Shown: in pieces, positions 2,176 to 22,161 of the stretch
Layout: each line of letters starts with the position of its first letter
How positions within the stretch are numbered: the first letter of the stretch is position 1
IMG/VR virus record: IMGVR_UViG_3300020172_000655
Location: 1-22,161 of that record
Origin: a virus
Reading direction: 5' to 3' (one strand)
Length of the DNA: 22,161 bases
Translations under genes and position numbers: made by a program
The notes under the pieces: generated by a model
The model's input: only the letters and a program-made list of their open reading frames with translations
What the model was told of the DNA's origin: nothing
Database searches by the model: none

Positions 2176-3165
2176 ATGGCAACTTTAGCAGAAATCAGAG
2201 CAAAACTTCAAGCATCATCTCAACAAAACACCGGCGGCTCGACAGGTGGAGACAACGCAATTTACCCCCATTGGAATATCGCAGAAGGACAGACCGCAAC
2301 GGTTCGTTTCTTACCTGACGCTGATCCAAACAATACCTTTTTCTGGATTGAACGTGCAATGATCAAGTTGCCATTCGCCGGTGTTAAAGGTGAAACAAAC
2401 TCAAAACCCGTGACTGTACAAGTTCCTTGTATGGAAATGTGGGGCGAGACTTGCCCAATCTTAACTGAGGTTCGTCCTTGGTTCAAAGATCCAAGTCTTG
2501 AAGACATGGGTCGTAAGTACTGGAAGAAGAAGAGCTTCTTGTTCCAAGGCTTTGTAGTTGACAGCCAATACAAAGAAGATGGGAAACAGCCAGAAAATCC
2601 AATCCGTAGATTTATCATCGGTAGCCAGATTTTTAACATTATCAAGGCTGCATTGATGGATCCAGACATGGAAGAATTGCCAACAGACTACCTACGTGGC
2701 GTTGATTTCCGTATTGTAAAAACTAGTAAAGGTGGTTATGCAGACTATTCTACTAGTAACTGGGCTCGTCGTGAACGTGCTCTTACTGAAGAAGAAAATG
2801 CAGCCGTTAAGCAACACGGTCCCTTTAATTTAAAGGACTTTTTGCCTAAGAAACCAGGTGAAGTTGAACTCAAGGTTATGAAAGAAATGTTTGAAGCGTC
2901 AGTCGACGGTGAAGCATTTGACATGGAACGTTGGGGTCAATATTTTAAACCAGCTGGTATGGGTGGAAGTGGTCAAGCAACTGGTAGCGGATCATCTGCA
3001 CCAGCTAAGGCAGTACCTGCACCAACAAAGGCAGCACAAGAAGACGAAGCTCCTTTTGAAACTGATACTCCTAAGGTGTCAGCACCGGCAGCTACTGGCG
3101 GTTCAGAAGCCAGTTCACGAGCACAAGACATCTTGGCAAAGATCAAAGCACGTCAGACAACTTAA
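2176..3165 (+). CDS. 32: Single-stranded DNA-binding protein gp32
   Basis: A 329-residue protein that should coat single-stranded DNA at replication forks and recombination intermediates and recruit UvsX/UvsY and gp41. The core matches the gp32 family: PHWNIAEGQTATVRFLPDAD (31-50), the FFWIERAMIKLPF strand region, and the YWKKKSFLFQGFVVDS block near 115-130. T4 gp32 binds zinc through one His and three Cys. Here only Cys85 and Cys93 are visible in that region, so the zinc site seems reduced or absent. The C-terminal tail (about 260-329) is Gly/Ser/Pro/Ala-rich with a short acidic patch and ends in a basic helix resembling the N-terminal TLAEIRAKLQ segment. It has a strong AAGGAG ribosome site and its own promoter. 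Confidence 0.93.
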   Translation: MATLAEIRAKLQASSQQNTGGSTGGDNAIYPHWNIAEGQTATVRFLPDADPNNTFFWIERAMIKLPFAGVKGETNSKPVTVQVPCMEMWGETCPILTEVRPWFKDPSLEDMGRKYWKKKSFLFQGFVVDSQYKEDGKQPENPIRRFIIGSQIFNIIKAALMDPDMEELPTDYLRGVDFRIVKTSKGGYADYSTSNWARRERALTEEENAAVKQHGPFNLKDFLPKKPGEVELKVMKEMFEASVDGEAFDMERWGQYFKPAGMGGSGQATGSGSSAPAKAVPAPTKAAQEDEAPFETDTPKVSAPAATGGSEASSRAQDILAKIKARQTT

Positions 3166-3179
3166 TCTAGGGGATCATA

Positions 3180-4232
3180 ATGGGAAAAGCATTTGATATC
3201 TCTAAATTCCGTAAATCTATCACTAAATCTATTGACGGTTTAGGTATTGGATTTAATGATCCGACAGATTGGATCAGTACCGGTAACTATGCTCTTAACT
3301 ATTTGATCTCTGGGGACTTCCTTAAGGGAGTTCCCCTTGGCAAAGTTACAGTCTTTGCAGGAGAAAGTGGTGCAGGCAAAAGTTATATTTGTTCTGGTAA
3401 CATTATTAAGAACGCACAAGAGCAAGGCATTTATGTTATCCTAGTTGATAGCGAAAATGCTCTCGATGAAGAATGGCTAAAGGCGTTAGGAGTAGATACC
3501 AGCGAAAATAAACTGTTGAAACTCAACATGGCTATGATCGATGACGTGGCAAAAACCATTTCAGAGTTCATGAAAGAATATAAATTGATGCCAGTTGAAG
3601 AACGTCCTAAAGTTATGTTTGTAGTCGACAGTTTAGGTATGTTGTTAACTCCAACTGATGTAAATCAGTTCGAAGCAGGTGAAATGAAAGGTGACATGGG
3701 CCGTAAACCTAAAGCACTTACATCACTTGTTCGTAACTGTGTTAACATGTTTGGTACTTATAATGTAGGAATGGTTTGTACAAATCACACCTATGCTAGC
3801 CAAGACATGTTTGATCCTGATGATAAGATTTCAGGCGGTCAAGGCTTCATTTATGCATCAAGTATTGTGGTTGCTATGAAAAAGTTAAAACTTAAAACAG
3901 ACTCAGACGGTAATAAAACTTCTGAAGTACACGGAATTCGTTCCGCTTGTAAAATTATGAAGACTCGGTATGCTAAACCTTTTGAAGGTGTGCAGGTTGA
4001 AATTCCATATTCAACAGGTATGAGTCCAACTAGCGGTTTAGTTGACCTTTTTGAGAAAAAAGGTATATTGACAAAGAGCGGAAATAAGTTACAATATATA
4101 AGTAAAGCGACAGGTGAAGTCTTTTCAGAGTTTCGTAAAAACTGGACAGAAGAAAAACTTTCAGTGATTATGACAGAATGGGATGAGTCAGCTGTTACCG
4201 CTGTTTTAGTGGAAGAAACTGAGGAAGCATAA
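3180..4232 (+). CDS. uvsX: UvsX RecA-like recombinase
   Basis: A 350-residue strand-exchange protein that forms filaments on single-stranded DNA and drives recombination-dependent replication and repair. The Walker A motif GESGAGKS is at 61-68, a hydrophobic strand ending in the conserved Asp (LVDSENALDEEW) at 88-99, and Walker B VMFVVDSLGM at 145-154. A DNA-binding loop region, DPDDKISGGQGFIYASS, lies near 214-230. Length is close to T4 UvsX (about 390), slightly short at the C-terminus. AGGGG precedes the ATG by a few bases. It lies 14 bases after gp32, and its stop overlaps the next ATG (TAATG), indicating translational coupling within the recombination operon. Confidence 0.95.
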   Translation: MGKAFDISKFRKSITKSIDGLGIGFNDPTDWISTGNYALNYLISGDFLKGVPLGKVTVFAGESGAGKSYICSGNIIKNAQEQGIYVILVDSENALDEEWLKALGVDTSENKLLKLNMAMIDDVAKTISEFMKEYKLMPVEERPKVMFVVDSLGMLLTPTDVNQFEAGEMKGDMGRKPKALTSLVRNCVNMFGTYNVGMVCTNHTYASQDMFDPDDKISGGQGFIYASSIVVAMKKLKLKTDSDGNKTSEVHGIRSACKIMKTRYAKPFEGVQVEIPYSTGMSPTSGLVDLFEKKGILTKSGNKLQYISKATGEVFSEFRKNWTEEKLSVIMTEWDESAVTAVLVEETEEA

Positions 4233-4480
4233 TGGAAGAAAGTTTAATTATGGAAGTTTGGGATACCTTCCGTGAATATATCCCTGACAAAAACAAAGAA
4301 ATGGCTGCAAATCAATATGTCGATTTCTTGCTCGGTAAAGATGTCGATACATCTGTGCTAGAAGGCCTCATGGGCTATGATCCCCATCTTGATGATGCTA
4401 TCAAAGCAGTGATAGATGAAACTAAAGAATGGGAAGACGGCGAAGATGAAGACGGTTATTACGAGGAAGATGAGGACTAA
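4232..4480 (+). CDS. Small acidic protein between uvsX and uvsY
   Basis: An 82-residue protein with no recognised function. The C-terminal third is almost entirely Glu, Asp, Gly and Tyr; the N-terminal part is predicted helical. Its start overlaps the uvsX stop by one base and its stop overlaps the next start by one base, so it is translated with the recombination genes. A DNA-mimic or a partner for the basic surfaces of UvsX or UvsY are possibilities drawn only from charge and position. Confidence 0.75.
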   Translation: MEESLIMEVWDTFREYIPDKNKEMAANQYVDFLLGKDVDTSVLEGLMGYDPHLDDAIKAVIDETKEWEDGEDEDGYYEEDED

Positions 4481-4938
4481 TGATGAACTGGTATAGCAAA
4501 GTCAGCAAAGACATTGCCCATTTGCCAGGATGCATCGATTACTACTACGCAGAGCTAGACGAAGCCAAGAAAGAGGTCAAGGTCTATGGAAACATGGAAA
4601 AGGCCTCTGCGGCTTTGCCTGGCATTGTAGCTCATCGATTCAATCAGCTTCAAGAAATTGAAGGCGTTCTCGAATATCTAAACATTGAACTACGTAGGCT
4701 TCGTTCGAAGACCTTTAAAAAGTATTTGGAAAACTATCAACGTGCCTTAAGCAGTAGAGATGTTGAAAAATATGTAGATGGTGAAGCAGACGTTGTTGAT
4801 ATGGAAAAAATTATCAACGAATTTGCTCTGCTACGTAATCAATGGTTAGGTATTATCAAAGGACTTGACATCAAACAATGGCAGATGAGTAATATCATTA
4901 AACTACGAACTGCTGGAATGGAAGATATTTCAATTTAA
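4480..4938 (+). CDS. uvsY: UvsY-like recombination mediator
   Basis: A 152-residue, largely helical, charged protein of the size of T4 UvsY (137 residues). UvsY loads UvsX on gp32-covered single-stranded DNA. Segments resembling UvsY of marine T4-like phages are YYAELDEAKKEV near 22-33, the basic helix with YQRALSSRDVEKYVDGEAD near 87-105, and the C-terminal FALLRNQWLGIIKGLDIKQW plus NIIKLRTAGMEDISI. Position between uvsX and uvsW supports the call, since T4 has uvsW next to uvsY. Two consecutive ATG codons (4480 and 4483) are available, and the first overlaps the preceding stop. Recognition is by pattern and context, not a catalytic motif. Confidence 0.75.
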   Translation: MMNWYSKVSKDIAHLPGCIDYYYAELDEAKKEVKVYGNMEKASAALPGIVAHRFNQLQEIEGVLEYLNIELRRLRSKTFKKYLENYQRALSSRDVEKYVDGEADVVDMEKIINEFALLRNQWLGIIKGLDIKQWQMSNIIKLRTAGMEDISI

Positions 4939-4939
4939 T

Positions 4940-6142
4940 ATGACACTCTACGTTGAAGATCTAATTTGTCGATTGGCCTCAGACGGCGCATATCTTTTTT
5001 CTCAGGAGGTACCAGTATGGTCGGGAGATCGAGCTGTGATACAAAGCCTAGCAGCGGCACATACTCAAGGCCGCGCCTATACTCAAAAGCAGAGAGACCT
5101 TGTCATGCGGCTAGTTAAAAAGTATCAAAGCGCCTTAGTGGGAGAATTTGGAAAACTGGCTACCGATGCAATTGATTTAACAAGTTTTAGATTTCCTGTA
5201 GCTGAAGCTAAATCTTCAACAAAGTATATTAAAATAGAAAACAAGAAAATATTGGTATCCTTCCCTTATAGTGAAAAATTAGTAGAAAATATCAAAAAGT
5301 TCAAAGCCTCTACCAAGGTCAAATTAGCCGAATGGGATGTAGATAAAAAGGTATGGGCGTTCGATCTCGAAGAATCAAACGTACTATGGGTTGCTAATAA
5401 CCTAATGACTCCAGAATTTACAGTGGATGACAATTTTCTTGAAATTTTTGAAGAAATTACCCAGGTCCTTGAAAATATCGAGGACCATGTACCTATACTG
5501 GTTAATACTGAGGCCGGTTTTAAGTTTGCCAACGGACACAAGACCCTACCAGATATTGATGCTGATAATGTGATTGAGGCAGTTTTACTGGCCAAGCACT
5601 ATGGCATTTCAGTATGGGACGAAAAGGTGTCAAATTTGTTAAAAAATGAAGAAATTTCGCCTGTTTTAGATAAGTTTATTAATGAAACCGGTTCAGAAAA
5701 TTTAAATTTCGACTCGAGTACAACAAACATTGATCAGTTTAAAGACCTGTTCAAGTTTAATGTGCCTGTACTGATCGTCATTCCGGCCGGCTATGAACTC
5801 AAGTACCTAAAAAATTGGTACTTTTGGTTAAAATCACAAAATTTCCAAGAAAAAGACATTTCTGTGATGTTTAGGTTAGAGAACACAGTAGGACGCGATT
5901 TCAATGATTACGTGAGAACCTTTGAGCTAAACACTCCTCTCCACGAAAATACAAAAATTGTGTTTATCAGCCAAAAGTTACCTAAGCCTATAATTAAGTC
6001 AGGCATTGATTTTAAATTTGTGTTAAACTTAGGCAATATTACAGGGGTTCACTATAGTATCACCAGCTACCTACAAAATGAACCTTGTATGATCAAATAC
6101 ACTGACACCAAACAACTAGGCTATCGAAGTGACGTACTGTAA
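4940..6142 (+). CDS. HARP-like domain protein adjoining UvsW
   Basis: A 400-residue protein of uncertain function. Residues about 97-155 resemble the HARP domain of the eukaryotic annealing helicase SMARCAL1: a strand ending in SFPYSEKLVENIKKF, then AEWDVDKKVWAFDLEE. N-terminal to this is a helix, YTQKQRDLVMRLVKKY (48-63), of a kind seen before such domains in phage proteins. The C-terminal half (about 260-400) alternates strands and helices, for example VPVLIVIPAGYEL and KIVFISQKLP. It might be a degenerate helicase-like domain but lacks Walker A and DExH motifs. It overlaps the uvsW start by 14 bases. A fork-binding partner of UvsW is inferred from this coupling and the HARP similarity. Confidence 0.6.
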   Translation: MTLYVEDLICRLASDGAYLFSQEVPVWSGDRAVIQSLAAAHTQGRAYTQKQRDLVMRLVKKYQSALVGEFGKLATDAIDLTSFRFPVAEAKSSTKYIKIENKKILVSFPYSEKLVENIKKFKASTKVKLAEWDVDKKVWAFDLEESNVLWVANNLMTPEFTVDDNFLEIFEEITQVLENIEDHVPILVNTEAGFKFANGHKTLPDIDADNVIEAVLLAKHYGISVWDEKVSNLLKNEEISPVLDKFINETGSENLNFDSSTTNIDQFKDLFKFNVPVLIVIPAGYELKYLKNWYFWLKSQNFQEKDISVMFRLENTVGRDFNDYVRTFELNTPLHENTKIVFISQKLPKPIIKSGIDFKFVLNLGNITGVHYSITSYLQNEPCMIKYTDTKQLGYRSDVL

Positions 6143-7580
6143 AATTATCATCAAGGATGAGGTTAATGTTAAGATTGAAAATTTAGATCTTGACACACGT
6201 AAATCTTTGGTGAAAAAATTCAAATATTTTGACCAAAAAGCCAGATACCTACCAGCTTACAAGTTAGGTCGGTGGGACGGCTGTACCAGCTTCTTCGGCC
6301 TGGGCGGCGGCACGTATATGAGCATACTTCCAGAGGTCATTGAAGAATTAATTAGACAGGGGTATGATCCCGAACTTGAAGATCTACGTAACTCTACCCC
6401 ACTGAATTTTGCCGAAATTTCTGAAGATTTTTGGGGTGATCAAACTTGGCCAGAAGGTCATAGATTTGCCGGTGATAAGATTAGACTTCGTGATGACCAA
6501 GTAGAAGTAGTCAATAAGTTTCTTGAAAATCCTCAATGTATTCAAGAAATTGCCACTGGGTTCGGAAAAACAATAACTACGGCTACACTGGCAAAAATTG
6601 TCGAAAAATATGGTCGAAGCATAATCATTGTACCAAACAAAAGTCTAGTCGAACAAACTGAAGAAGACTTCATTAACTGTAGATTAGATGTAGGTGTGTA
6701 CTATGGTGATAGAAAAGAGCTAGGTAAAACTCACACAATTTGTACCTGGCAGAGCTTGAATATTTTAGACAAGAAATCACAGGACAATGACGAATTATTA
6801 ACACTGGCTGAATTTCTTGACGGAGTTCAAACAGTGATGGTTGATGAGGTACACATGGCCAAAGCTGATGTATTGAAGCGACTGTTGACTCAGAATATGA
6901 GTAATGCACCTATTCGTTGGGGGTTGACTGGTACAGTGCCTAAAGAGGATATAGAATTTCAAAATATTCGAGCTGCTTTAGGTGATGTAGTACATCGTGT
7001 ATCGGCACATGAACTACAGGAAAAGGGTGTATTAAGTAATTGTCATGTGAATGTTATTCAAACTGCCGAGTGGAAAGAGTTTGGAAGTTATCCAGAAGAG
7101 TTAAAATTTTTAGTAACTGACACAGATAGAATGACATGGGTTAGCAAACTGGTACAGGGCATAGCAGAAAGCGGAAATACACTGGTACTAGTTGATAGAA
7201 TTGAATCAGGAAAATTTATAGTAAATGAGATACCGGACAGCGTTTTTATTTCTGGAGAGGTAAAAACCAAAGATAGAAAAGAAGAATACGATGAAGTTAA
7301 AACTGCTGATAAAAAGATTATTGTGGCGACTTACGGTGTGGCCGCTGTGGGTATTAATATCCCTAGGATTTTTAATCTGGTTCTTCTTGAGTCCGGAAAG
7401 AGCTTTACTCGCGTTATACAAAGCATTGGCCGAGGTATTCGAAAAGCCGACGACAAAGACTTCGTCCAAATCTGGGACTTGACAGCATCTACAAAATATG
7501 CTAAAAAACACTTAACAGAACGTAAACGCTTCTACAAGGAAGCCAAGTATCCGTTCACAATTGAAAAGGTAAAATATTAA
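6129..7580 (+). CDS. uvsW: UvsW superfamily 2 DNA helicase
   Basis: A 483-residue ATP-dependent helicase; T4 UvsW (about 500 residues) migrates Holliday junctions, regresses forks and unwinds R-loops. The N-terminal domain (about 5-80) matches the UvsW N-domain, including the RYLPAYKLGRWDG segment. Helicase motifs are RDDQVEVV (121-128), Walker A ATGFGKT (142-148), DEVH (239-242), LTGT (266-269), motif V near ATYGVAAVGINIP (400-412) and motif VI QSIGRGIRK (431-439). The start is GTG at 6129; there is no ATG before the conserved N-domain. It overlaps the preceding HARP-like gene by 14 bases, so translation is probably coupled. All expected catalytic residues are present. Confidence 0.95.
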   Translation: MTYCKIIIKDEVNVKIENLDLDTRKSLVKKFKYFDQKARYLPAYKLGRWDGCTSFFGLGGGTYMSILPEVIEELIRQGYDPELEDLRNSTPLNFAEISEDFWGDQTWPEGHRFAGDKIRLRDDQVEVVNKFLENPQCIQEIATGFGKTITTATLAKIVEKYGRSIIIVPNKSLVEQTEEDFINCRLDVGVYYGDRKELGKTHTICTWQSLNILDKKSQDNDELLTLAEFLDGVQTVMVDEVHMAKADVLKRLLTQNMSNAPIRWGLTGTVPKEDIEFQNIRAALGDVVHRVSAHELQEKGVLSNCHVNVIQTAEWKEFGSYPEELKFLVTDTDRMTWVSKLVQGIAESGNTLVLVDRIESGKFIVNEIPDSVFISGEVKTKDRKEEYDEVKTADKKIIVATYGVAAVGINIPRIFNLVLLESGKSFTRVIQSIGRGIRKADDKDFVQIWDLTASTKYAKKHLTERKRFYKEAKYPFTIEKVKY

Positions 7581-8083
7581 TGCAAATTCTAACGCTGGAT
7601 GATAAAATCTATCACCTAAATGATCTCCCCGATGAGATCGATGACGACTTGAGATTTGCGGTTCTTGACAACAGCGATCCTTCAAATCCAGATTATTTTT
7701 ATATTCCACTGATCTTTTTAGAAAGTTTTACAGCGCCTGCGGCAGTGTTAAAAGTTGGTCCTTATACCGTTAACATGCCCTTGGATTGGTGTACTATTGT
7801 TGGCGATCCGGAAGGACCTGATATGGAAATTATGCCGTTAACCAGTCTTAATGATCGTGGATTTAAAACATTTTTGTTCAATCCTCTAAGCGGATTCCGA
7901 CCAGAATTTTATGACGTAGATATCATTGATGTATATCAAGATGTTAAATGGTATTTTCCAAAGATGAAGCCAGGTCAGCTGTTGTGTACTCCTTTATCTG
8001 AAGATCCAAATCCCCTATGTGCTTATTTTGTCAAAGAAGTTTCGAGACAAAGTGAGCTAGTTGACTACAGTAAATGTTGGTAA
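7580..8083 (+). CDS. Conserved phage protein of unknown function
   Basis: A 167-residue acidic protein with mixed strands and helices. I cannot assign a family. Its start overlaps the uvsW stop by one base (TAATG), and its C-terminal block WYFPKMKPGQLLCTPLSEDP is the most distinctive segment. No catalytic or metal motif, signal peptide or membrane helix is visible. Genomic position argues for a replication- or transcription-linked role, which is inference only. Confidence 0.75.
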   Translation: MQILTLDDKIYHLNDLPDEIDDDLRFAVLDNSDPSNPDYFYIPLIFLESFTAPAAVLKVGPYTVNMPLDWCTIVGDPEGPDMEIMPLTSLNDRGFKTFLFNPLSGFRPEFYDVDIIDVYQDVKWYFPKMKPGQLLCTPLSEDPNPLCAYFVKEVSRQSELVDYSKCW

Positions 8084-13278: not shown

Positions 13279-14286
13279 ATGAATCTCATACAGGCTTCCG
13301 TACAAACTTTCTTGCCTCCTAAAAGAAAGACCACTCCTAGCGGCTGGACGAGTTTTAATGCTGTATGTTGTCATCACAACGGTGACAGCCCAGATACTAG
13401 AAAACGTGGCGGTGTGCTGTTCAGTGAGGACGGATTCCAATATCATTGTTTTAACTGCGGATTCAAGGCAGGATGGACTCCTGGTAAACTTCTAAGTAAA
13501 AATACCAAAAATTTATTGTCATGGATGGGAATGCCCACTGACGAGATTAACAAGCTCAATCTTGAAGCACTGCGTAGTAAAGAAGACATTCCTAAAGTAG
13601 TTAAGACATTTAATTTTGATTTGCAGGAAAAAGAACTGCCTGAAGATTCTGAATCAATAATATCATGGGCACATGATTTAACAAGGCTTAACAGTGAGTT
13701 AAGAGATAAATTTTATAGTATTGTTCAATACATTGACAACAGAGGATTTGACCCATACGATCAAAGATTTTATTGGTCGCCTGCCCCTGGCTATTCGGAT
13801 CGAGTAATCATAGCGTTTCGTCAAGATGGAAAGATTGTTGGCTACACTGGACGTAAGGTCACAGAAGGCAAACCTAAATACCTTACAGATGCTCAACCTG
13901 GATACGTGTTTAACATTGATAATCAAACTGAAGATAGAGAATATGTAATTGTAGTAGAAGGTCAGTTTGATGCCATGGCAGTGGACGGCGTGGCAATCAT
14001 GTCTAACGACCCTAATGCTACGCAGATTGCTAGAATTAATCGACTAGGTAAAAAAGTTATAGTAGTACCTGATCGAGACAAGCCCGGTGCTAAAATGATA
14101 CAGACTGCGTTAGACAACGGGTGGAGTGTTAGTATGCCTGATTGGGAGTCTGACGTTAAAGACTGTGCAGATGCTATGAAACGATACGGCAGACTGTACA
14201 CACTGTTCACAATATTGGAAAGTCGAGAAGACAGCGAGATAAAAATACAACTAATGAAAAAGAAACTAGAAAACCTAAATGAGTAA
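13279..14286 (+). CDS. 61: DNA primase gp61
   Basis: A 335-residue DnaG-type primase, close in length to T4 gp61 (342). It makes RNA primers and works with the gp41 helicase as the primosome. An N-terminal zinc-binding region contains Cys30, Cys31, His32, His33 and the CFNC pair (57-60). The TOPRIM core has VVEGQFDA with Glu227 and the metal-binding VVPDRDKPG with Asp265 and Asp267. An RNA polymerase-like segment, YSDRVIIAFRQDGKIVGYTGRK, spans about 172-193. The start at 13279 has no Shine-Dalgarno sequence but an A/T-rich stretch just before it. It overlaps the gp41 gene by 8 bases. Confidence 0.93.
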   Translation: MNLIQASVQTFLPPKRKTTPSGWTSFNAVCCHHNGDSPDTRKRGGVLFSEDGFQYHCFNCGFKAGWTPGKLLSKNTKNLLSWMGMPTDEINKLNLEALRSKEDIPKVVKTFNFDLQEKELPEDSESIISWAHDLTRLNSELRDKFYSIVQYIDNRGFDPYDQRFYWSPAPGYSDRVIIAFRQDGKIVGYTGRKVTEGKPKYLTDAQPGYVFNIDNQTEDREYVIVVEGQFDAMAVDGVAIMSNDPNATQIARINRLGKKVIVVPDRDKPGAKMIQTALDNGWSVSMPDWESDVKDCADAMKRYGRLYTLFTILESREDSEIKIQLMKKKLENLNE

Positions 14287-15733
14287 AACAAACTATAACG
14301 CTGAAATACAAAAATTATATCTGGAGATGTTTCTGTCAGACGCAGAAACATTTGTACGCTGTCAAAATATCTTTAATCCAGATAGCTTTGACAAACGATA
14401 TCAAGATTCTGCAAAATTTATCACAGAATATTTAGATCAATACAAAGTCATGCCTGAGGTCAGTATTGTCAATGCTGCCTGCGAATCTGATTTCCAAGCA
14501 GTGTCACTGCCCAAAGAAAATTATGATTGGTTAATGAACGAATTTGAAAATTTTGCACGGCATAAGGCACTAGAACGTGCAATCTTGCAAAGTGCCGATC
14601 TACTGGAGAAAGGTGAATACAATCCAGTTGAAAAGCTGATCAAGGATGCAATACAGATCAGTCTTAACAAAGACATGGGCACAGACTATTGGTTAGATCC
14701 TCGTGCTCGATTACTAAAACTTAAAGATAATAATGGTCAAATTTCAACTGGCTGGCTCACTGTTGATAAAAAATTATATGGTGGATTTAAACGCGGTGAA
14801 TTGAATATTTGGTGTGCTGGGTCAGGCGGAGGTAAGAGTTTGTTCCTAGCTAACCTAGGTGTTAACTTTTCTTTAGCAGGATTGAATGTAATCTACTTTA
14901 CCTTTGAACTTTCAGAAGAATTAGTAGGTATGCGTATTGACAGTATGTTAACCGATATTGCAGCCAAAGATATTTTTAAGAACCTTGACGATGTTGAAAT
15001 GAAGGTTAAATTAACAGGAAAGAGGGCAGGAGGAATCCAAATAAAATACATGCCTTCCGGTAAGAATTGTAACGATTTGAGGTCATATTTAAAAGAATAT
15101 CAGGTCAAAACAGGCAAAAAACCTGACATAATTTTAGTGGACTACTTAGACCTAATGATGCCACTAAGTGTTAAAGTTAGTCCTAGTGATCTGTTTGTTA
15201 AAGACAAATATGTTTCAGAAGAACTACGTAACTTGGCTATGGAAACACAGGCAGTTGTGGTAACAGCGGCACAGTTAAATCGTTCAGCAGTTGATGAAAT
15301 TGAGTTTGATCACAGTCACATCAGCGGAGGATTGAGTAAGATTCAAACCGCAGATAATGTTATTGGTATCTTTACTAGTAGACAAATGAAAGAACGTGGA
15401 CGTTATCAAATTCAGTTTATGAAGACACGTTCAAGTAGTGGGGTTGGACAAAAAGTTGACTTAGAATTTAATATAGATACACTAAAAATTGGTGATTTAG
15501 GTGAAGATGAAAGTCAGAGTTTTAACGGACAAAGAAGTGCTGCTAGTGCATCATTAATTGACGGGTTAAAGAAAACCAGTGTAGTAACTTCTACAAATAG
15601 TGTTATTGATTCAGATGGTGTAATACGTGATATTGATCCAGCGGCAGGATCAAACATACCTAAAAATAAAGTAAGTATCAAGCCTAGGGATATTCGCGAT
15701 ATGTTGAATAACTTAAATCCTGAGAAAGATTAA
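14279..15733 (+). CDS. 41: Replicative DnaB-family helicase gp41
   Basis: A 484-residue hexameric 5'-3' helicase that unwinds the phage fork and stimulates primase. The N-terminal helical domain (about 1-130) is followed by a RecA-type ATPase domain. Walker A is GSGGGKS (181-187), the catalytic Glu lies in TFELSEE (208-214), Walker B is ILVDYLD (285-291), and AAQLNRSAVDE plus KTRSSSG cover motif H3/H4 and the arginine-finger region. Length matches T4 gp41 (475). The Ser/Thr-rich tail (about 415-484) is variable, as expected for the loader/primase contact region. It begins inside the primase gene, so the two subunits are translationally coupled. It ends with a 4-base convergent overlap with the AlgH-like gene. 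Confidence 0.95.
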   Translation: MSKTNYNAEIQKLYLEMFLSDAETFVRCQNIFNPDSFDKRYQDSAKFITEYLDQYKVMPEVSIVNAACESDFQAVSLPKENYDWLMNEFENFARHKALERAILQSADLLEKGEYNPVEKLIKDAIQISLNKDMGTDYWLDPRARLLKLKDNNGQISTGWLTVDKKLYGGFKRGELNIWCAGSGGGKSLFLANLGVNFSLAGLNVIYFTFELSEELVGMRIDSMLTDIAAKDIFKNLDDVEMKVKLTGKRAGGIQIKYMPSGKNCNDLRSYLKEYQVKTGKKPDIILVDYLDLMMPLSVKVSPSDLFVKDKYVSEELRNLAMETQAVVVTAAQLNRSAVDEIEFDHSHISGGLSKIQTADNVIGIFTSRQMKERGRYQIQFMKTRSSSGVGQKVDLEFNIDTLKIGDLGEDESQSFNGQRSAASASLIDGLKKTSVVTSTNSVIDSDGVIRDIDPAAGSNIPKNKVSIKPRDIRDMLNNLNPEKD

Positions 15734-18599: not shown

Positions 18600-21500
18600 T
18601 TATCCGAACGTTGATGTTGATGCTAGTACAACTGTAGAAGTAGCTGTGCCTAATTGTAATAGTTTAAATTGTACTAAATCAATTTTTCCTGGATTACCGA
18701 CATGAGCTCCATTGTTTTGCCAATTTACATCCGAAGTAACACCGTTAATAGAAAATCCAGTAATAGTTCTAGCAGTAGCAGTTTGATGAACAAATACATT
18801 AACATACTTGGTTATTCCAGAAGCTGTATTAATATAATTATAGATACCAACTACAAAGTTAGCGTTTGGTCTAAATATTGAGGTATCATCTCCGGAATCA
18901 TTCCAATCTATAAAAACTGTAGAGGTTGTATTTGTCTGAGTACCGTGACCCGTTAGATACTTATTGAAGAAAATACCACCACTGTCATTTATGAAGTCTC
19001 CTCTTTGATATATATTTCCAAATACACCTATACCCCCTTGAACTACTACTGCTCCAGTACTTGTAGAAGTGGAATTTGATCCCTGTACTAGCATTCCACT
19101 TCTAGCAGTTACTATTCCTCCCTGCACTGTTAGGCCTGTGCTCATGGTAGCAGTACCAATAAAACTAGAAGTTGAACTTACTAGTATATCAGTATTAACA
19201 ATTAAATTTTTACCAATATATGCACCACCGGCTAGTTGTAGGGCACCAGTAACGCCGTTGTTTAATGCGGCATCTGCATTAGTTGAGGTAAAAATACCAA
19301 CATATGGAAACTGTAGTAAGCCGGTTGCGCCGGTTGCGCCTGTGGATCCGACATTTCCTCCTACACCTTGTATACCTGTAGCACCAGTAGTTCCCGGAAC
19401 ACCTGTCTGCCCTGTAGCACCAGTAGCACCTGTGCCTCCTATTGGTCCAGTGGCACCAGTGGCACCAGTTGAACCTGTAGTACCTTGAATACCAGTAGCA
19501 CCAGTACCGCCAACAGCACCAGTAGCACCTGACCCAGTAGCACCAACTGGTCCAGTACTACCTGTAGCACCAGTACCGCCCATAGCACCTGTGGCACCGT
19601 CGTAGCCAGTTGCACCAGTTGCACCTTGAGCCCCTGTAGCACCTCCAATACCAGTAGCACCTTGTGATCCTGTAGCACCAGTTGCACCAGATCCAGTTAA
19701 TCCTGTAGCACCATCTAATCCTGTAGCACCTGTTGGGCCTGTAGCACCTGTACCTCCTGTTGGACCGCTTGGACCAGTTGCTCCTGTAGATCCTGTAGCA
19801 CCTGTTGATCCTGTTGATCCTGTAGCCCCAATAGGTCCTGTAGCACCTGTAGATCCCTGTTGTCCGGTAGCACCTGGAACATTACTTACGCCTGTAGCAC
19901 CCGATGGTCCTGTAGCACCGGTAGCACCTGCTGCCCCAGTTGATCCAGTTTCACCTTGATTTCCTTGATTTCCTTGAATGCCCGTTGCACCTGTTGCACC
20001 AGCACCTGTTGCGCCAGTTGGTCCTGTAGCTCCCGCAGCACCTGTAGCACCATCTTGCCCTACTGCGCCGGTTGCACCAGCGCCAGTGGCGCCTTGAGGA
20101 CCTGTAGCGCCGGTTGCACCTGTAGCACCTGTAGCACCAGCACCCGTAGAACCTTGAGGACCTGTGGCGCCTGTGGCTCCAATATTACCAGTGGCACCAG
20201 TGGCACCTGCACCTGTGGCTCCCTGAGAACCTGTTGCACCTGTTGCACCGTCGGCACCTGCATTACCTGTAGCACCTGTAGCGCCGGCGCCAGTAGCACC
20301 TTGATTTCCTGTGGCACCTGTGGCACCTGTACTACCTTGATTTCCTGTGGCTCCTGTGGCACCTGCACCAGTAGCACCTGCAGGTCCTGTTGCGCCTGTT
20401 GCGCCAGTAGCACCTGTACTACCAATATTACCTGTAGCACCTGTCGACCCAGTAGCACCTATATTGCCTGTTGCGCCAGTGGCACCTGTGGCTCCAATAT
20501 CTCCTATAGCACCTGTAGCACCTGCACCTGTGGCTCCCTGCGGACCAGTAGCACCTGTACTGCCTGTAGTTCCTTGTACACCTGTGGCACCTGAGCCTGT
20601 AGCACCAGTTAAACCTGTAGCACCTTGAGCACCTGTTGATCCTTGGAAACCGGTAGCACCAGTCGAACCGGTAGCACCAGTTGAACCAGTAAATCCTGTT
20701 GCGCCTGTACTACCTGTTGCGCCTGTAGTTCCAATAGGACCTGTTGCACCGCCCGGAGTTCCTGGAATACCCTGTGGTCCTGTAGCACCAGTAGTTCCTG
20801 TTCTTCCTGTTGCACCGGTACCACCTGTTGCACCATTTCCGCCAACCGGTCCTTGAGGTCCAGTGGCACCTGTTGAGCCAGTAGCGCCTGCGCCAGTGGC
20901 TCCTTGATATCCTTGATATCCTATTGGTCCAAGAGGGCCTGTTGCTCCTGTTGAACCTGGTCCACCTGTAACACCAGTGGCACCGGATGGTCCAGTAGCA
21001 CCAGTACTGCCCAAATCTGCTGTAGCCACAACAAACCAAGTTGTTGTAGTTAAGGCCAATCCCTGTGTTCTATCCACTGCCACCGTAATACTGTTGGTAA
21101 CAGTGTCGATTACTGTGATCTGGCCTTCTACCCAATCATTAACAGGAACAATACTTTGATAATTCTTTGCACGTACACGCTGACCTAAAATCAGTGCTGT
21201 TTGGTCATTTAAAACAAATGTCTTATTACCTGTATTAATTGTATGACTGCTGGTACTGTAACTACCTAGTCCTAGGCCTGTGGCACCGGTTGCACCTGTT
21301 TCACCTTGTATACCAGTGGCGCCGTCGAGGCCGTTGTCACCAGCTTCACCAGTAGCGCCAACTACGCCACCGCTGACACTGACTATGCCTGATCCGTCAA
21401 TAGTCAGTCCGCTGCCAATAATAACACCGCCAAGCGTTGAAGTAGTTGCTGAACTTAAACTTAATACTTGGCCAGAAATTTCTAATCCACCGCCAACTCG

Positions 21501-22161
21501 TATAATACCTGCTGTGCTAGTAGTGGCAGTGTTTAGAGAAACTACAATTGTTGAAGTATCAACACTGACCACACCTGCTGCAACTTGAAGTCCATCTCCA
21601 ACTTGCATGATACCTGCTGTAACTGCACTGGCAACTGGAATATTAATTAGATCGTTAAAATCACCAGTGACTGCAACACCACTGAGTGTTTGTTGACTTT
21701 GATCAATCTTACGATCAATCAAATCTGAGAATGTGTAGTTGATACCATCAACACTGGAAATTTCAATGCCGTAGGTTCCCACAAAATCACTACGCATTAC
21801 ACCGCTCGTTAGATTGGGCAATAGGGTAGCATTGGTAACACTGCTGATATCTGAGAATGTCACTGTGGTAGCAGTGGATAAAATATCTACATACAGTCTA
21901 AGGCTACTGTATTGATCAATTGGAAATTCACGAAGTTGTACTGTGATGTTGCCCGCAGTTTCTAAGTAGTGTACTGGTGCGTCTGTAAAACTAACTAGAA
22001 CTGTGCCTGTAACTGAGGCTCTTCTAAATAGTCTCTGAGTCCAGTCTGCTAGTTGAACTTCACGTATTTCTGCACCAACCATGTAGTTTTGATAGTCGTC
22101 TGCATTTTCTGCACGAGTAGTGCTGGTTGTACCTTTGAGCAAGGTTGTACCGTCAATTTGA
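18600..22161 (-). CDS. Collagen-like tail fibre protein (partial at N-terminus)
   Basis: A minus-strand reading frame open to the right edge of the window; the codons before 22142 (QIDGTT) fit the protein, so the true start lies outside. At least 1186 residues are present. Counting from the codon at 22142, the layout is a globular N-terminal part with short repeats of the type [11 protein letters not shown] / [11 protein letters not shown] (1-261), a short Gly-X-Y block (262-290), a beta domain (about 291-377), a collagen-like block of about 564 residues (378-941) dominated by Gly-Ala-Thr, and a 239-residue C-terminal beta-rich head (942-1180). Such proteins form trimeric fibres used for host recognition. 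Thr in the Y position is a possible glycosylation site. The two GT9-like genes follow downstream. Confidence 0.88.
19320..21011 (-). repeat. Tandem 9-bp-type repeats encoding the collagen-like shaft
   Basis: About 1.7 kb of degenerate tandem repeats built on Gly-X-Y triplet pairs (commonly Gly-Ala-Thr, read on the minus strand). Around eleven sites have a Gly-X-Gly step where one residue is missing, for example GATGAGATG and GATGSGATG. The larger unit [13 protein letters not shown] recurs, which points to duplication of blocks within the shaft. The repeats create long open frames on the other strand and frames that are not genes, and they are prone to recombination and assembly error. Confidence 0.9.

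Follow-up and report, generated by a model that had tools for sequence, protein, structure and literature searches.

A HARP-like protein family encoded directly upstream of UvsW in uncultured giant phages, a candidate accessory subunit of the recombination machinery

What is the role of a protein with a HARP-like segment that is encoded directly in front of the helicase UvsW? The question is raised by a stretch of 22,161 bases (positions 1 to 22,161 of the uncultured virus record IMGVR_UViG_3300020172_000655), here called the window, in which a gene for 400 amino acids, here named H, lies between uvsY and uvsW. The first-pass annotation, made from the sequence alone, suggested that H and UvsW may be the two subunits of a split HARP-SF2 annealing helicase. 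The genes concerned are the following.

2176..3165, plus strand, gp32-like single-strand DNA-binding protein
3180..4232, plus strand, uvsX recombinase (PHROG 97, 3e-71)
4480..4938, plus strand, uvsY recombination mediator (PHROG 231, 8e-16), ending 1 base before H
4940..6142, plus strand, H, 400 amino acids, ATG start, HARP-like and, by predicted fold, RecA-like
6129..6142, plus strand, overlap of H and uvsW, 14 bp
6129..7580, plus strand, uvsW, SF2 helicase, 483 amino acids, GTG start, motor motifs intact

The order of the locus is gp32, uvsX, a small open reading frame (ORF), uvsY, H and uvsW, and further downstream there are genes for a primase and a DnaB-type helicase (13279-15733, with an 8-base overlap). 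Because of this gene order, and because the UvsW of the window has its nearest counterparts in giant phages (Phosso, Paride and RaK2, 48-53% identity), the window is placed among the T4-like jumbo phages. The largest contig with a relative of the H locus measures 383 kb. The small ORF between uvsX and uvsY (4232-4480) encodes 82 amino acids without a family match, and its first 67 residues are 98-100% identical in most close relatives. Another ORF, of 167 amino acids (7580-8083; PHROG 11279, unknown function), begins at the uvsW stop and is 98-100% conserved in close relatives. Just 5' of the gp32-like gene, positions 2065-2112 hold a promoter-like site followed by a 15-bp stem-loop and a T run, possibly the start or a boundary of the recombination operon. 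On the minus strand, opposite to the replication genes, positions 18600-22142 encode a repetitive tail-fibre or collagen-like protein of 1180 amino acids.

The identity of the gene downstream of H, given as uvsW in the first-pass annotation, is certain (PHROG DNA helicase, 8e-78; T4 UvsW, 2oca, 2.6e-26). In the latter alignment, residues 28-468 of the window UvsW pair with residues 26-471 of T4 UvsW, that is, with the N-terminal recognition domain as well as the two motor domains. T4 UvsW has both unwinding and annealing activities (PMC3409536) and promotes branch migration, the substrate being recognised perhaps via the small electropositive N-terminal domain (PMC3016280). A published comparison assigns a single HARP domain to the N-terminus of UvsW and two to SMARCAL1 (PMC4666394). 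Since UvsW-type enzymes have an N-terminal HARP-type domain of their own, and since the alignment of the window UvsW covers it, H does not supply a HARP half that UvsW would otherwise lack. The 14-base overlap between the two reading frames is present as previously described.

Is the segment of H truly related to HARP? For the window H alone the resemblance is marginal. Against the Pfam HARP family (PF07443; curated cut-off 25 bits) the whole protein gave E=8.9 (6.4 bits, residues 106-149) and the segment 86-160 alone gave E 0.013 (15.5 bits), both below the cut-off. Relatives checked singly reached up to 16.8 bits, with the match at the same position in each. As the evidence from single proteins was marginal, a family was built. 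UvsW as the query yielded 80 loci, H relatives were then picked out upstream of uvsW, and after further scans the family comprised 133 distinct sequences from uncultured phages. In a Pfam scan of 77 whole H proteins HARP was the commonest match (7/77, best 3.6e-5), and it was matched by 17 of the 31 segments (residues 86-160) from clade 1, to which the window H belongs (best 3e-6). At the family level the HARP resemblance is significant, and the first-pass annotation was right to see it in the gene before uvsW. The H profile also matched the stand-alone, 168-amino-acid HepA-related protein of Bacillus phage vB_BsuS_PJN02 (HMM 6e-5; hhalign profile match 5.5e-6 to 1.1e-5). Among PDB sequences it had no significant match, and the HARP of SMARCAL1 was not recovered. 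In isolate phages, tblastn with the window H found nothing at E<=0.01 and likewise nothing with divergent members as queries; the genome contigs scanned held no relative. A Pfam match to glutaminyl-tRNA synthetase R1 (E 0.08) was dismissed as chance. H is an undescribed family, whose only close relatives are the stand-alone HepA-related proteins of phages and the two-ORF versions of Sinorhizobium phage Phosso and Agrobacterium phage Atu_ph07 described below.

Structure prediction agrees with the profile matches. A first AlphaFold model, made from 7 close relatives, was discarded (pLDDT 39.6). The model from a 77-row alignment reached pLDDT 87.8 and pTM 0.62; both this model and the Foldseek searches with it rest on an alignment of uncultured sequences. 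Its nine best fold matches in the PDB were all S. tokodaii XPB-II, A. fulgidus XPB or T4 UvsW (best E 1.3e-3, probability 0.99). The N-terminal domains of XPB and UvsW are relatives of HARP. Among the viral models of BFVD it matched the Bacillus phage HepA-related protein (4e-4) and a 181-amino-acid protein of Atu_ph07 (A0A2L0UZF7), which from its length and organism would be the first of the two Atu_ph07 ORFs considered below. In the predicted HARP-type region, where mean pLDDT per block is 78-92, strands at 96-100 and 103-107, a helix at 112-124, strands at 130-133 and 138-142 and a helix at 145-154 follow one another. The model thereby supports a HARP fold in residues 96-154, a beta sheet packed on two helices as this fold is described in the published comparison (PMC4666394). 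The parts of H are as follows.

5069..5182, plus strand, residues ~44-81, helix with the motif GxxxTEKQxxLxxKILxKY; all relatives have Q51
5225..5401, plus strand, residues 96-154, predicted HARP-type domain (b-b-a-b-b-a), FPY...W.....K.W.F
5426..5701, plus strand, residues ~163-254, middle region, mostly helical and acidic
5702..6109, plus strand, residues 255-390, predicted RecA-like alternating alpha/beta domain without Walker A

Residues 1-85 are predicted to be helical, and the TEKQ helix motif recurs in Phosso and Atu_ph07, in the ORFs that encode the HARP half separately. Over residues 161-275 the window H has a net charge of about -15.

It could be argued that the resemblance to HARP is merely convergence on a small W-x(n)-K-x-W-x-F beta motif and that H has an unrelated DNA-binding fold. 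The same motif is present in DUF5710, which was likewise matched in the Pfam scans of the family, and both the score of the window H below the Pfam cut-off and the absence of a match among PDB sequences would fit such a view. It is nevertheless very unlikely, given that HARP was matched by more than half of the clade-1 segments, far above any other family, and that the fold search with the model leads independently to XPB and UvsW with their HARP-related N-termini.

The C-terminal half of H had been described as having no recognisable catalytic motif. This stands as far as Walker A (GxxxxGK[ST]) is concerned, which is absent from all 133 sequences, and a DExx box is represented only by a few DE-x-H/D strings at scattered positions. 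Judged by these two motifs, H by itself would not be an SF2 helicase. The half is not featureless, however, as the residues best conserved in the family lie here. Q51, F311, R312, N331 and K349 are fixed in both clades and N322 is conserved at 99% or more; most of the fixed residues sit in the C-terminal domain, where they form the signature FR...FN...N...K-x-PK. The aromatic core of the HARP-type domain (W132/W139/F141) is ~92% conserved in clade 1, while in clade 2, which makes up half of the family, this core is eroded and the C-terminal signature is still invariant. The RecA-like assignment of this half comes from the fold matches to XPB and UvsW, which span about 320 columns; profile comparison gave no match to either motor domain. 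When the half was compared with RecA1 and RecA2 of UvsW, hhalign and our own profile alignment supported neither, and by eye either fits. A weak local match to the core of UvsX (hhalign P 0.002, z 5.3), one among several targets tried, was set aside.

The adjacency to uvsW, on which the pairing of the two proteins had been founded, proved to be conserved. In every one of the 136 distinct loci the gene that directly precedes uvsW is H. The two overlap in 132 of these loci, most commonly by 14 bases, and in most relatives the H stop falls inside uvsW codons 4-5. With H as the query, and hence free of the bias of a search with uvsW, uvsW was found immediately 3' in all 37 loci that had downstream sequence, and no member of the uncultured family was found away from uvsW. 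Nine large contigs carry one copy of H each and no second copy. RaK2, Paride, fEgEco12 and Vibrio phage 2.275 have UvsW but lack H, and in two contigs of the same group (L110, L111; 3107-3958) a 283-amino-acid gene replaces H, which was not found elsewhere in these 35-kb and 181-kb records. The replacement gene looks glycosyltransferase-like by eye.

The proposed split enzyme would have H as its HARP half and UvsW as its motor half, neither working alone. Its premises, a HARP-type domain in H and a near-universal adjacency and overlap, hold. The pairing into one enzyme is nonetheless quite unlikely, as UvsW keeps its own N-terminal HARP-type region (PMC4666394 and the alignment with T4 UvsW), the same kind of UvsW serves many phages that have no H, and H carries a further domain of its own. 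Natural fusions of H and UvsW, proposed as a check in other phages, were found in none of the loci: the two are separate genes throughout and UvsW has at most 512 amino acids. A combination of H with an SF2/SNF2 motor in one chain, as in SMARCAL1, was not seen. The evolutionary distances, to which we now turn, add no preference of H for UvsW.

H is only 60-70% identical across phages in which UvsX, UvsY and UvsW are 96-100% identical, and the drop in identity coincides with the edges of the gene (window positions 4940-6142 compared with loci L003, L005, L006, L007 and L009). Such sharp edges possibly mean that this one gene evolves fast or has exchanged alleles. The dN/dS ratio is 0.09-0.18 for H and 0.02-0.03 for uvsW, and over the whole family H diverges 5.3-fold faster than UvsW. 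These ratios rule out a decaying pseudogene; together with the rate of divergence they indicate that H is selected, functional and fast-changing. A protein of this kind might be an arms-race product on a helicase scaffold, placed beside uvsW and inhibiting a nuclease or sensor with which the host attacks recombination intermediates. Both the divergence confined to H and its rate would suit this role, yet the FR/FN/N/PK residues are strongly conserved family-wide, selection on H is purifying, and H has been retained at one locus over very divergent phages. Arms-race genes usually come and go, and we consider this origin improbable.

The distances of H correlate with those of UvsY (r 0.83), UvsW (0.80) and UvsX (0.75), and the partial correlations are 0.46 for UvsY vs 0.30 for UvsW, so that UvsW is not singled out over UvsY. 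As H tracks UvsY slightly better than UvsW, its partner could be UvsY/UvsX or DNA alone. H might then be a stand-alone binder of branched or single-stranded DNA, mediator-like or protecting R-loops or D-loops, which does not bind UvsW and is adjacent to it for co-expression only. HARP-type domains bind DNA by themselves, Bacillus phages have stand-alone HARP-type proteins without uvsW alongside, and H follows directly after uvsY. That the searches met no H away from uvsW in the uncultured family, and no second copy in the nine large contigs, is harder to reconcile with such independence, and we hold this alternative to be rather unlikely.

The reading that we prefer, with a probability of about 0.5, makes H a non-catalytic accessory subunit dedicated to the machinery of recombination and fork remodelling around UvsX, UvsY and UvsW. 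It would contact DNA through its HARP-type domain, dock or regulate through its RecA-like domain and help UvsW. The relation to HARP and to the HepA-related protein, the XPB/UvsW folds, the adjacency, the dN/dS ratios and the missing Walker A all point this way, as does the position of H inside the run gp32-uvsX-uvsY-H-uvsW. UvsW and H are probably a helicase and its non-catalytic helper, and the simplest model adds to UvsW, or to the UvsX/UvsY/UvsW machinery as a whole, a further HARP-type subunit that is ATPase-dead. What H does, including its binding to DNA, its binding to UvsW in a physical complex and the direction of its effect, we infer. H would be made next to UvsW and most likely translationally coupled to it. 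Its HARP-type domain may add a contact with branched or single-stranded DNA; the ATPase-dead RecA-like domain may be a conserved docking or regulatory module. Most likely H would help UvsW to recognise or load on forks, D-loops and Holliday junctions, or would bias UvsW between regression/annealing and unwinding. With the HARP-type domain of UvsW itself, the pair would have two such domains, as SMARCAL1 has in one chain. Several observations speak against a subunit: the slightly closer tracking of UvsY, an evolution about 5 times faster than that of UvsW, the related giant phages with UvsW and no H and the two same-group contigs with another gene in its place, the loss of the HARP aromatic motif in clade 2, and the lack of a profile match of the C-terminal half to the UvsW motors. 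Such fast evolution is unusual for a core subunit.

A more specific version, which we regard as unlikely, makes H a pseudo-helicase. H would be a HARP-SF2 paralogue whose ATPase has been lost by decay, and its obligate heterodimer with the active UvsW would be a fork-regression enzyme that has two HARP domains and one motor and is encoded by two genes; the two-ORF versions of Phosso and Atu_ph07 would be stages of the same decay. Were H such a partner, it would reveal how an annealing helicase can be controlled in trans, or equipped in trans with a second recognition domain; SMARCAL1 makes this hard to study, since both of its HARP domains are in one chain. In any case H is a previously unnamed family, nearly absent from isolated phages. 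It accompanies the principal fork-remodelling helicase in a large set of uncultured giant phages, and its C-terminal signature lets the family be found and tested.

Among known systems, T4 UvsW and archaeal XPB have the solved folds closest to the H model as a whole. They share with H a small DNA-recognition domain followed by a RecA-like alpha/beta domain, both predicted in H, but H lacks Walker A, its sequence shows no detectable similarity to the UvsW motor, and UvsW itself is encoded by the next gene. With SMARCAL1 and the HARP family, H shares the HARP-type domain with its aromatic W...K.W.F core; unlike SMARCAL1, it is not fused to an SF2/SNF2 motor and has an additional helical N-terminus and a predicted RecA-like C-terminus, and unlike members of Pfam HARP, the window segment falls below the family cut-off. 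The HepA-related protein of the Bacillus phage has the N-terminal helical and HARP-type segments of H, but is without the middle and C-terminal domains, and its gene does not lie beside uvsW. In Phosso (gp418 and gp419, 212 + 500 amino acids; L010, 3747-5880) and Atu_ph07 (181 + 334 amino acids; L100, 6842-8372) a HARP-half-like ORF overlaps a second ORF, after which comes uvsW, so that, unlike in H, the HARP half and the second half are kept in separate genes. Phosso gp418 matches H at 2e-15 and the 181-amino-acid ORF of Atu_ph07 matches it weakly, through the TEKQ helix, whereas gp419 and the 334-amino-acid ORF have no sequence match to H, including its C-terminal half, or to UvsW; by eye these second ORFs look like a decayed helicase core, which no tool confirmed. 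The T4 UvsW system itself has a small accessory protein, UvsW.1, which is trihelical and a potential DNA-binding partner (PMC7824862); it differs from H in fold and resembles it in the accessory role proposed here.
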